Assembly: GCA_025355745.1 (NCBI GenBank)
Contig: JANXZA010000036.1
Coordinates: 1-33,177 of the forward strand
Length of the DNA stretch: 33,177 nt
Reading direction: 5' to 3'
From: Rhizobacter sp.
Lineage (GTDB): Bacteria; Pseudomonadota; Gammaproteobacteria; Burkholderiales; Burkholderiaceae_C
Of this stretch, positions 16,040 to 26,547 are shown one piece after another. The translations under genes were made by a program, and so were the position numbers. The notes beneath the pieces are model-generated. The model made no database searches, was not told the origin of the DNA, and saw only the letters and a list, made by a program, of their open reading frames with translations. Positions within the stretch are counted from its first letter, which is position 1. Every line of letters begins with the position of its first letter.

Positions 16040-16151
16040 AACTCACTCACCGCAGAGGCGCTGAGTGACGCAGAGTTGCGCAGAGTAAAGACATGAGATT
16101 GAATTCCTCTGCGAACCTCTGCGTTCTCCGCGCCTCTGCGGTGGTGAGTTT
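16040..16151. repeat. Palindromic hairpin element, family A copy 2
   Basis: Arms at 16040-16085 and 16106-16151 are inverted complements over about 46 bases with a few mismatches, closing a 20-base A/T-richer loop. The arm begins AACTCACTCACCGCAGAGGC and contains repeated GCAGAG blocks. It fills the 200-base gap between the ThDP enzyme gene and the RraA-family gene. It could weaken read-through between them or stabilise the upstream mRNA. Confidence 0.88.
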
Positions 16152-18144: not shown

Positions 18145-18238
18145 GACAGACCTCGCGACGGGCCGGGATGGCCGGCGCCGATGCTACGGCTGGCGGACGA
18201 CGATGCGAAATACTCGCTTGCCCGTATGCGTCTTACTT

Positions 18239-18420
18239 CCTCTCCCTCTGGGAGAGGCGACCTTCTTTGCTCCCTCTCCCTCTGGGAGAGGCGACCTTCT
18301 TGCACCCTCTCCCTCTGGGAGAGGGTGGGGGTGAGGGTCGGGCCACCGCCGACCTCGTGCAGGCAGCCGACGCGCCTGCGGCGCGCCCTCACCCTAACCC
18401 TCTTCCAGGGGGAGAGGGGA
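18239..18420. repeat. Palindromic repeat array, family B
   Basis: Three near-identical copies of TCTCCCTCTGGGAGAGG begin at 18241, 18275 and 18308, with a 33-34-base period. The first two share the following GCGACCTTCTT. The third continues into GGGTGGGGGTGAGGG and is matched by an inverted copy, CCCTCACCCTAACCCTC, at 18387-18403. Each unit is itself a short hairpin. The array lies between trpB2 and serB, and its right end overlaps the 3' end of serB. Confidence 0.88.
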
Positions 18421-20010: not shown

Positions 20011-23000
20011 TCAGCCCGCCACGACGGCCACCTTCGGCACACCCAGCGCCCGCAGCACATCGCGAATCATCTGCGCCCGGTCTTTCGCCAGCGGCGTCTC
20101 GCGCTCGATGCGCAGCTTGTCGTTGCCGGCCAGCTTGATGTGGCGGTTCTTCTGCACCAGCTCGATGATGCGCAGCGCATCGACCGGCGGGTTCGCCCGG
20201 AAGCTGATCACCATCAACTGCGGCGCGGCGTCGATCTTGGTCACGCCGTAAGGCTTGGCGAGTACGCGCAAGCGGTGCACGTCGAACAGGGTCTGGCCTT
20301 GCGGTGGCAGCTTGCCGAAGCGGTCGGTGATCTCCTCTAACAGCGCGTCGATGTGTTCCGGCTTCGACGCGGTGGCGAGTTTCTTGTACAGCGACAGGCG
20401 CGTGTGCACGTCGCCGCAATACGCGTCGGGCAGCAGCGCCGGCGCGTGCAGGTTGATCTCGGTCGCGGCCGACAACGGGCTCAGCAGGTCGGGCTCGACT
20501 CCCGCCTTCAGCGAGCGCACGGCCTCGGCCAGCATCTCGTTGTAGAGCTGGAAACCGACCTCCATCATGTTGCCGCTCTGGTTGTCGCCCAGAACCTCGC
20601 CGGCACCGCGGATCTCGAGGTCGTGCATCGCGAGGTAGAAGCCCGAGCCGAGTTCTTCCATGCTCTGGATCGCCTCCAGCCGCATCGAAGCCGCCTTCGT
20701 CAACGCTTCCACATCGGGCACCATCAGGTAGGCGTAGGCCTGGTGGTGCGAGCGGCCGACACGGCCGCGCAACTGGTGCAGCTGCGCCAGGCCGAACTTG
20801 TCGGCGCGGCTCATCACGATGGTGTTGGCGGTGGGCACATCGATGCCGGTCTCGATGATGGTCGAGCACAGCAGCAGGTTGTAGCGCTGGGCCACGAAGT
20901 CGCGCATCACGCTCTCGAGTTCGCGCTCCGGCATCTGGCCGTGGGCGATGGCGATGCGCGCCTCGGGCACCAGCTCGGCGAGCTTGTCGCGCCGCGCCTT
21001 GATGGTCTCGACCTCGTTGTGCAAAAAGTAGACCTGGCCGCCGCGCTTCAGCTCGCGCAGCACGGCCTCGCGGATCGTGCCGCTGCTCTCGCTGCGCACG
21101 AAGGTCTTGATCGCCAGCCGGCGCTGCGGCGCAGTCGCGATGACGCTGAGGTCGCGCAGGCCTTCGAGCGCCATGCCCAATGTTCGCGGGATCGGCGTGG
21201 CGGTGAGCGTGAGCACATCGACCTCGGCGCGCATCGCCTTGATCGCCTCCTTGTGGCGCACGCCGAAGCGGTGTTCCTCGTCGATCACCAGCAGGCCGAG
21301 GCGCTTGAACTTCACCTTCTCGCTGATGAGGGCGTGGGTGCCGACGACGATGTCGACCGTGCCGTCGGCCAGCCCCTCGAGCGTGGCCTTCACTTCCTTG
21401 GCGGAGCGGAAGCGCGAGATCTCGGCCACCTTCACCGGCCACTTGCCGAAGCGGTCGGCGATGTTCTGATAGTGCTGCTCGGCCAGCAGGGTGGTGGGCG
21501 CCAGGATCGCCACCTGCTTGCCGCCGGTGACCGCGATGAAGGCGGCGCGCAGCGCGACTTCGGTCTTGCCGAAGCCGACGTCACCGCAGATCAGCCGGTC
21601 CATCGGCTGCGGCGACACCATGTCCTGGATCACGGCGTGGATGGCGGCCTGCTGGTCGGGCGTTTCCTCGAAGCCGAAGCTGGCCGCGAAGGCCTCGTAG
21701 TCGTGCGGCGAGAAGCGGAACGCGAAACCTTCGCGCGCGGCGCGGCGGGCGTACAGGTTCAGCAGTTCGGCGGCGGTGTCGCGAACCTGTTCGGCGGCCT
21801 TGCGCTTGGCCTTGTCCCATTGGCCCGAGCCGAGCCGGTGCAAGGGCGCTTCGTCGGCGCTGACGCCGGTGTAGCGGGCGATCAGGTGCAGTTGCGCGAC
21901 CGGCACGTACAGCGTCGCCTTGTCGGCGTACTCGAGGTGCAGGAACTCGCTGGCGCCACCGTCGGCGCCGTTCGACAGGTCGATGCTTTTCAGCCCGACG
22001 TAGCGGCCGATGCCATGGTTCGCATGCACCACCGGGTCGCCGACCTTCAGCTCCGACAGGTCTTTGATGAGCGCGTTGACATCGCTGACCTGCTCCTGCT
22101 TGCGGCGCCGGCGCGTGGTCGGCGAGGCGGCGAAGAGTTCGGTTTCGGTGATGAACTGGATCGCCGTGGATGCTTCGGGCTCGAACCAGAAGAAGCCTTG
22201 CGCGAGCGGCGCGACGGCGATCGCGAAGTGGGCGTCGCCGGCCTGGAATTCTGCGAGGGATGCGACGCTCGGCGGCTCGATCCTGCTGTCGCGCAGCAGC
22301 TCCAGCAGGCTCTCGCGCCGGCCTTCGCTTTCGGCGACGATGAGGACGCGGTGCGCGGTGGTGCCGACGTGCACCTGCAGCTTCTTCAGCGGCTCGGGCG
22401 CGCCGCGGTCGACGCTGAGGTCGGGCAGGGGGCGGGCCCAGGGGGCAGCGAGCGAGCCCTCACCCCAACCCTCTCCCAGAGGGCGACGGGGCAATACAGT
22501 CGCGTCCGCAGCGGCCTCGCGTGTTACTCCCTCTCCCGCCTGCGGGAGAGGGCTGGGGTGAGGGCCGGTGGTCCTCCCCCGCACCGACAACTGCGCATGC
22601 CTACCACAAAACGCAAAAAACTCCTCCGCCCGCAGGAACAATTCTTCCGGTGCCAGGATCGGCCGCTCCCGGTCGTGCTGCAGGAACCGATGGCGCTCCC
22701 GCGTGTCGACCCAGAACCGCGCCAGTGCCTCGTCCACTTCACCGTGCAAGGCGACCGTGGCCTCGGCCCCCAGGTAGTCGAAGATCGTCGCCGTCGCGTC
22801 GAAGAACAAGGGCAGGTAGTACTCGATCCCGGCGGTGGCAATGCCCGCGCCGATGTCCTTGTAGAGCCGCACCTTGGTCGGGTCGCCCTCCATTTTCTCG
22901 CGCCAGCGCGAGCGGAACGCGGTGCGCGCGGCTTCGTCCATCGGGAACTCGCGGCCCGGCAGCAAACGCACTTCGGGCACCGGGAACAGGCTGCGCTGGG

Positions 23001-23604
23001 TGTCGGGGTCGAAGGTGCGGATCGAGTCGACCTCGTCACCGAACAGGTCAACCCGGTACGGCACCAGCGAGCCCATCGGGAACAGGTCGATCAGCCCGCC
23101 GCGCACCGCGTACTCGCCCGGCGACACGACCTGGCTCACATGGGTGTAGCCGGCCAGCGTGAGCTGCGCCTTCAGGCCCGCTTCGTCGAGCTTTTCCTTC
23201 TGCTTGAAGTTGAAGGTGTAGGCGGCGATGAAGCTCGGCGGCGCCAGCCGCACCAGCGCGGTCGAGGCCGGCAGCAGCACCACATCGACATCGCGCTTGT
23301 CTCTTGAATTCAGGATCCGCCAGAGCGTGGCCAGGCGCTCGGAGATCAGGTCCTGGTGCGGCGAGAAGGTGTCGTAGGGCAGCGTCTCCCAATCCGGGAA
23401 CACGGCGATTCGCAGGGCCGGCGCGAAGAAGGCCAGTTCGTCCTCGAGGCGCTGGGTGTCGGCGGGCTCGGCGGTGACGATGCAGGTCAGCTTGCCCTGG
23501 GCACTTTGTGCGAGCGCGAACCGCGCCAGCAACAGGGCATCGGCCGAGCCGAACGGGCGCGGCAGGGTGAAGCGATTTCCGGGCTTGATGTCGGGCAGTT
23601 GCAT
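20011..23604 (-). CDS. mfd: Transcription-repair coupling factor Mfd
   Basis: This 1197-residue ATPase displaces RNA polymerase stalled at DNA lesions and recruits UvrA. Visible parts in order are the UvrB-homology region (FFAPALRIAVFPDWETLPYD), the RNA polymerase-interacting domain near 510-570 (VGDPVVHANHGIGRYVGL) and the RecG-like helicase. The helicase shows Walker A GDVGFGKTEVALRAAF, DEEHRFGV, TATPIPRTL, and the motif VI region QLRGRVGRS. The C-terminal UvrA-binding-like domain follows. The start ATG 23604 fits the family N-terminus better than the open frame back to 23670. About 37 residues near 346-382 come from a family B palindromic insertion and have no counterpart in the family; the frame stays open across it. 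It is divergent from ispD. Confidence 0.96.
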   Translation of the reverse strand: MQLPDIKPGNRFTLPRPFGSADALLLARFALAQSAQGKLTCIVTAEPADTQRLEDELAFFAPALRIAVFPDWETLPYDTFSPHQDLISERLATLWRILNSRDKRDVDVVLLPASTALVRLAPPSFIAAYTFNFKQKEKLDEAGLKAQLTLAGYTHVSQVVSPGEYAVRGGLIDLFPMGSLVPYRVDLFGDEVDSIRTFDPDTQRSLFPVPEVRLLPGREFPMDEAARTAFRSRWREKMEGDPTKVRLYKDIGAGIATAGIEYYLPLFFDATATIFDYLGAEATVALHGEVDEALARFWVDTRERHRFLQHDRERPILAPEELFLRAEEFFAFCGRHAQLSVRGRTTGPHPSPLPQAGEGVTREAAADATVLPRRPLGEGWGEGSLAAPWARPLPDLSVDRGAPEPLKKLQVHVGTTAHRVLIVAESEGRRESLLELLRDSRIEPPSVASLAEFQAGDAHFAIAVAPLAQGFFWFEPEASTAIQFITETELFAASPTTRRRRKQEQVSDVNALIKDLSELKVGDPVVHANHGIGRYVGLKSIDLSNGADGGASEFLHLEYADKATLYVPVAQLHLIARYTGVSADEAPLHRLGSGQWDKAKRKAAEQVRDTAAELLNLYARRAAREGFAFRFSPHDYEAFAASFGFEETPDQQAAIHAVIQDMVSPQPMDRLICGDVGFGKTEVALRAAFIAVTGGKQVAILAPTTLLAEQHYQNIADRFGKWPVKVAEISRFRSAKEVKATLEGLADGTVDIVVGTHALISEKVKFKRLGLLVIDEEHRFGVRHKEAIKAMRAEVDVLTLTATPIPRTLGMALEGLRDLSVIATAPQRRLAIKTFVRSESSGTIREAVLRELKRGGQVYFLHNEVETIKARRDKLAELVPEARIAIAHGQMPERELESVMRDFVAQRYNLLLCSTIIETGIDVPTANTIVMSRADKFGLAQLHQLRGRVGRSHHQAYAYLMVPDVEALTKAASMRLEAIQSMEELGSGFYLAMHDLEIRGAGEVLGDNQSGNMMEVGFQLYNEMLAEAVRSLKAGVEPDLLSPLSAATEINLHAPALLPDAYCGDVHTRLSLYKKLATASKPEHIDALLEEITDRFGKLPPQGQTLFDVHRLRVLAKPYGVTKIDAAPQLMVISFRANPPVDALRIIELVQKNRHIKLAGNDKLRIERETPLAKDRAQMIRDVLRALGVPKVAVVAG
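22456..22565. repeat. Palindromic element, family B, inserted in frame in mfd
   Basis: Outer arms of 22 bases, 22456-22477 and 22544-22565, are inverted complements with one mismatch (GCCCTCACCCCA / TGGGGTGAGGGC). A smaller perfect hairpin lies within at 22529-22552 (CCCTCTCCCGCC / GGGAGAGGG). On the mfd strand the element encodes peptides like HPSPLPQAGEG and RRPLGEGWGEG. It is the same repeat as at 18303-18420, in a paired, inverted arrangement like a BIME. Confidence 0.9.
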
Positions 23605-23681
23605 GAATCGTCGGGCTGAAAGCAAGACGCCCCAGGGGCCTTCTCGATGTGGCTTTCCCCGGGGCGGCAAAGAGCATCGAT

Positions 23682-26442: not shown

Positions 26443-26547
26443 TCACCACCGCAGAGGCGCAGAGGCGGAGAGGGCGCAGAGCATCGCAGAGAAATCAACT
26501 CTTGGAAATTCCTCTGCGTTCCCTCTGCGCTCTCTGCGGTGCGTGAG
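26443..26547. repeat. Palindromic hairpin element, family A copy 3
   Basis: The left arm (CACCACCGCAGAGGCGCAG onward) and the right arm (CCTCTGCG ... CTCTCTGCGGTG) are imperfect inverted complements of about 40 bases, closing a loop near 26491-26511. The block GCAGAG recurs several times in each arm. It lies between ompR and envZ on their transcript and could cause attenuation or processing, giving unequal amounts of kinase and regulator. Confidence 0.87.

Follow-up and report, generated by a model that had tools for sequence, protein, structure and literature searches.

How does a strongly palindromic repeat come to lie inside the open reading frame (ORF) of mfd, and what allows the gene to carry it? 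We addressed this question in the window, a 33,177-nucleotide stretch of DNA from Rhizobacter sp. (contig JANXZA010000036.1), where the mfd ORF occupies positions 20011-23670 of the minus strand (1219 codons from a TTG; in our judgement the ATG at 23604 is the likely start). Within it, positions 22456-22565 form an inverted pair of repeat units. The arms (22456-22482 and 22539-22565, 27 nt each) are 89% complementary across a 56-nt spacer, and the coding-strand RNA folds at −79.6 kcal/mol (z −6.1), a stability matched by none of 200 shuffles. As the preliminary description had stated, this 110-bp element (~37 codons) keeps the frame: the ORF is open across it, and Pfam Mfd domains lie on both sides.

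The element fits the TM_ECO repeat family, which we take to be the boxC of E. coli. The published pattern, CCCTCNCCC-N3-6-GGGNGAGGG-N3-GGGNGAGGG, matches exactly at 18305-18337 and 22529-22564, its sole two matches in the window, and gave no match in 100 shuffles of the window. The match in mfd (plus strand) is a complete unit consisting of a C-stem, a 6-nt loop, a G-stem, a 3-nt loop and a second G-stem. The other unit of the pair (22457-22477) is truncated: on the minus strand it shows both G-stems, but the C-stem is not intact, and the full pattern finds no match there. The match at 18305-18337 belongs to an array at 18.3 kb (18237-18418) made up of an inverted pair (18305-18337 and 18386-18418) and half units; an exact pattern match in each bears out the earlier view that the array and the mfd element are of one family. 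An ORF that we take to be SerB-like has its stop codon (18394-18396, minus strand) and last residues within the array, so that the repeat supplies the end of that gene.

TM_ECO was described in E. coli as an intrastrand-triplex (PIT) motif (Holder et al., 2015; PMC4666352). It forms such a triplex in vitro, although the authors' data, in the available text, give no support for a stable triplex in vivo, and their BLAST searches associated its copies with neither transposons, phages nor plasmids. The repeats studied here share with it the exact pattern, the frequent inverted two-unit configuration and the many copies per genome. They differ in location: according to the same available text the K-12 copies are always intergenic (PMC4666352), a habit that forms no part of the sequence definition, whereas here at least 10 genes contain the family in frame, and in mfd it recurs across a taxonomic family. 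The repeat is thereby brought from the intergenic setting described for K-12 into protein-coding space.

A search of the whole genome gave 83 matches to a 21-nt core of the repeat at ≤2 mismatches (3 for the reversed control), grouped into 69 clusters. Close unit pairs are inverted in 14 of 14 cases, eight in one order and six in the other. In a codon-usage scan the best frame agreed between the two flanks of 20 clusters, and in 10 of these it stays open across the repeat; at least 10 of the 69 clusters therefore lie in frame within genes, a minimum because some cases may escape the scan. Pfam and NCBIfam identify the 10 genes as mfd, murD, aceF (pyruvate dehydrogenase acetyltransferase), a senA-like (selenoneine-synthase-like) gene, a CusA-like pump gene, a hydantoinase gene, putA, an indolepyruvate oxidoreductase gene, hrpA and an MmeI-like gene (C-terminal Pfam match below cut-off, none in NCBIfam). 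Judged from position, about five of the 10 inserts fall between Pfam domains. The murD and hrpA copies rule out a family special to mfd. Among the 30 best-scoring loci retrieved for each gene with an insert-bearing query, murD carries the family in three (G000, the window's genome, with G004 and G273) and hrpA in five (G000, G273, G205, G371 and, in degenerate form, G005). Most of these sites have a long, variable linker in any case, unlike the short Mfd site in the window's close relatives. MurD in this lineage has a long variable linker (L150, L270), in which the window's genome and G004 share an SWLASQDR-type stretch beside the palindromic repeat; an SWLASQD stretch, perhaps another repeat, is seen again in L185, within the hydantoinase ORF.

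The Mfd site is nearly empty in close relatives. Between the conserved LSVRG and WARPL the Mfd protein of the window (P0001) has 45 residues (366-410; window 22441-22575, minus strand), and the sister genome G001 has five (LSVRG-SEPSE-WARPL). G001, of the same genus, is the nearest row in our tree (SH-aLRT 99). The site holds ~4-6 residues throughout the same-genus genomes G001, G002, G004, G005, G008 and G009, and is longer and variable in a second clade. The possibility that relatives carry the same residues without a palindrome was checked: relatives including G001 have short linkers and the palindrome is absent from them. On our favoured reading the insertion is recent on the window's branch. 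The preliminary description had put the gain at about 37 residues, which agrees with the length of the element; the net gain over G001 is however 40, the old linker having been replaced and not cleanly split. No target duplication was seen by eye. The nearest named relatives are Rhizobacter, Piscinibacter and Rubrivivax, in accord with the Burkholderiales host that had been proposed.

In the protein, the alignment to E. coli Mfd stops at residue 355 (~331 in E. coli) and restarts at 413 (356 in E. coli). Counting through the conserved HAxLxxRG motif, an extrapolation, would place the insert at about E. coli residues 342-356. Pfam matches UvrB_inter at 154-242 and MFD_D3 at 438-512. Sequence comparison puts the insert at the border to which it had been assigned, with the UvrB-like module (D1b) on one side and D3 on the other. 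We used AlphaFold2 to model residues 23-530 with a 69-row alignment (A1). Mean pLDDT was 85.7; model residues 348-383 fell below 50 (pLDDT ~35), and their flanks were mostly above 90. The model predicts a disordered, probably floppy loop between two folded domains.

The preliminary description had raised the idea that the insertion is present only here. This proved wrong: the same repeat family occupies the same linker in 11 other genomes of the taxonomic family. We ran a 157-residue insert-bearing query over 399 genomes of that family and took Mfd linkers for 84, of which 83 were readable. With the core at ≤3 mismatches, 12 of the 83 carry the repeat (G000, G014, G216, G414, G273, G341, G040, G355, G220, G293, G060 and G054), a count that is not a prevalence since the linkers were chosen largely from the best scorers of the query and are biased to inserts. 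The strict pattern also matched in nine of the 12 (not in G054, G060 and G273), and the core matched outside the Mfd linker in two of 194 loci scanned. Among 80 named relatives, two were flagged (L017 and a degenerate L022). The linker length is divisible by three in all 12 carriers and in 81 of the 83 overall; the linker of G081 is off-frame. Unit order and frame vary among carriers, from PHPSPLP...GEGWGEG in G000 to RERAGVR...PSPQPS in G273. These observations bear on an assembly artefact, for which the 284 contigs of the window's genome might speak; the frame is kept and an insert sits at this site in G040, G293 and G355, whose genomes are single contigs, and we consider an artefact almost certainly not the explanation.

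Carriers are mostly rich in the repeat. Ten of the 12 have 54-109 core copies at ≤2 mismatches (G341 has six, and G054 five against two in its reversed control), so the insert mostly arises where the repeat is common. A comparison set of 20 other family genomes, about half of them with the linker read, has 0-12 copies. At ≤1 mismatch, 45 genomes of the family reach 20 or more core copies; of these, nine have the Mfd-linker insert, 14 were read without it and 22 were unread; one of the 14, G399, carries a different repeat at this position, described below.

In a quick tree of 63 genomes, setting the carriers of the family against every other row takes 10 changes, five of them forced by starred (well-supported) branches. 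Shuffled labels need 11.2 changes on average, so that carriers are about as scattered as chance would have them; G220, G293 and G355 form one clade. One or a few old insertions, with repeated loss and with remodelling by gene conversion from genomic copies, might produce such a distribution. The changes may be gains or losses, 21 of the 60 inner forks are unresolved, five of the 10 changes rest on well-supported branches, and three changes suffice when the label is compared only with rows carrying other repeats. Against this, the inserts vary in the order and spacing of their units and span 123-216 nt between fixed anchors, while 22 of the 64 linkers scored as free of any repeat are exactly 48 nt. 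We give this reading little credence.

The linker has apparently been struck by two further palindrome types, in five or six genomes and in two. The second palindrome has GAGCTTGTCGAAG-like arms and lies in the Mfd linkers of G096, G399, G278, G154, G244 and, weakly, G346, where one arm is seen; the G278 copy, a call by eye, looks decayed and was scored as repeat-free. Its pattern was useless at ≤4 mismatches (82 loci matched outside the linker); at ≤3 it found five of the six named linkers and none of 34 other Mfd linker loci. In G244 there is a frame break between the matched parts, and its linker was read off-frame in one scan and in frame in another. Core copies of this second repeat number 92 in G154, 86 in G244, 19 in G278, eight in G399, three in G096 and two in G346. 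G143 (141 copies; short linker) and G054 (77 copies; TM repeat in the linker) are without it at the Mfd site and speak against a simple abundance link. The second repeat also occurs in hrpA of G329, and we found no relevant paper on its core in the open-licence literature. The second palindrome, GTTCGCCCTGAGCTTGTCGAAGG with its inverse, was noted in the Mfd linkers of L219, L220, L222, L227 and L253, some copies decayed. The third, a short palindrome (CCCCCTCGGGGGG), is at the Mfd linker of two genomes only, G374 and G324 (L125, L126). The eight genomes with these other two repeats have 0-7 TM_ECO core copies at ≤2 mismatches, except G399 with 34.

Recurrence at the Mfd linker is the less expected part of these results and might reflect more than tolerance. 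One possibility is a target preference at the DNA level, the linker sequence itself being a preferred entry site. The repeated strikes on one linker (10 tree changes, five on starred branches) would fit; the apparently three repeat types, both unit orders, differing flanks and lack of a target duplication by eye argue against it, and we find it very doubtful. Alternatively, a longer linker might be selected because it loosens a self-inhibited Mfd or because the hairpin slows translation at a domain border, the site being hit again because this is beneficial. For the face of Mfd D2 that binds UvrA to be exposed, D1-D3 has to shift. Consistent with such selection are the recurrence at one linker, apparently by three repeat types, the strength of the hairpin and the module-like shift of D1-D3 during the Mfd cycle (PMC7864632). 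However, the peptides that the inserts encode are not alike in frame, unit order or sequence, variable linkers of hrpA and murD are also struck, and 64 of the 83 readable genomes were scored without any of the three repeats. Furthermore, the linker stressed for D1-D3 movement in the available text is D3-D4 and not D1b-D3 (PMC7864632). We judge selection for length unlikely.

We therefore favour, with good though incomplete confidence, a non-autonomous TM_ECO-family repeat that was inserted in frame as an inverted pair and is tolerated at a permissive Mfd linker. The source of the inverted pair would be the copies already resident in the genome, and its destination the codons of the D1b-D3 linker. 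The insert keeps the frame and avoids the sole frame in which GGGTGAGGG reads TGA; Mfd is thus presumably made with ~40 extra disordered residues. Survival would be by tolerance, the linker accepting length and sequence while Mfd-breaking insertions are lost; the enlarged Mfd would still work and the addition would be neutral. In a broader version, housekeeping proteins would continually gain new disordered linkers from palindromic repeats, with the Mfd D1b-D3 linker a general landing site for different families and inserts fixed because a longer, looser linker usefully alters Mfd control; this we think rather unlikely. Since nature provides Mfd proteins both with the added linker and lacking it, tolerance or benefit of D1b-D3 lengthening is directly testable.

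As to movement of the favoured repeat, the Y1/RAYT transposase domain (PF01797) has no match in the window's genome (rated 96% complete), and control genomes were positive in five of 14. Of 40 relatives, 11 carry the repeat, six of these with the domain, and 29 do not, 20 of these with the domain. The lack of a PF01797 match in the window's genome and of a link with the repeat in the relatives led us to reject RAYT mobilisation; replication-linked template switching is our guess for the copying route. Intragenic GTAG and CGTC REPs have also been described (Di Nocera et al., 2013; PMC3733652); their dimers or groups add 20-30 residues, many in DNA-repair genes such as uvrA, uvrB and recB, much as here. 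The GTAG type is proposed there to be moved by RAYT, unlike the repeat in the window's genome, where RAYT was not found. By eye, no GTAG/CGTC tag is seen in the mfd element; where a GTAG REP would bear an unpaired GTAG/GYRG tag at one end, the unit here closes with GTGAGGG. The likeness to the Rickettsia palindromic elements (RPE; described in PMC3733652) that had been suggested holds for mode of action, palindromic repeats being kept in frame within several genes; the sequence fits TM_ECO, and the host belongs to a Burkholderiales lineage and not to Rickettsia. The main text of PMC3733652 mentions neither mfd, boxC nor triplex. In the open-licence literature we found nothing fitting by title on mfd or transcription-repair coupling with such repeats, and no relevant paper on the insert-encoded peptides. 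Two things stand out as uncommon: that the TM_ECO family lies in coding sequence here, and that a single Mfd linker has been used repeatedly, by this repeat and apparently by others.

Elsewhere in the window, positions 16048-16143 and 26447-26541 are two copies of a different dispersed inverted repeat, with ends CACCGCAGAG ... CTCTGCGGTG.
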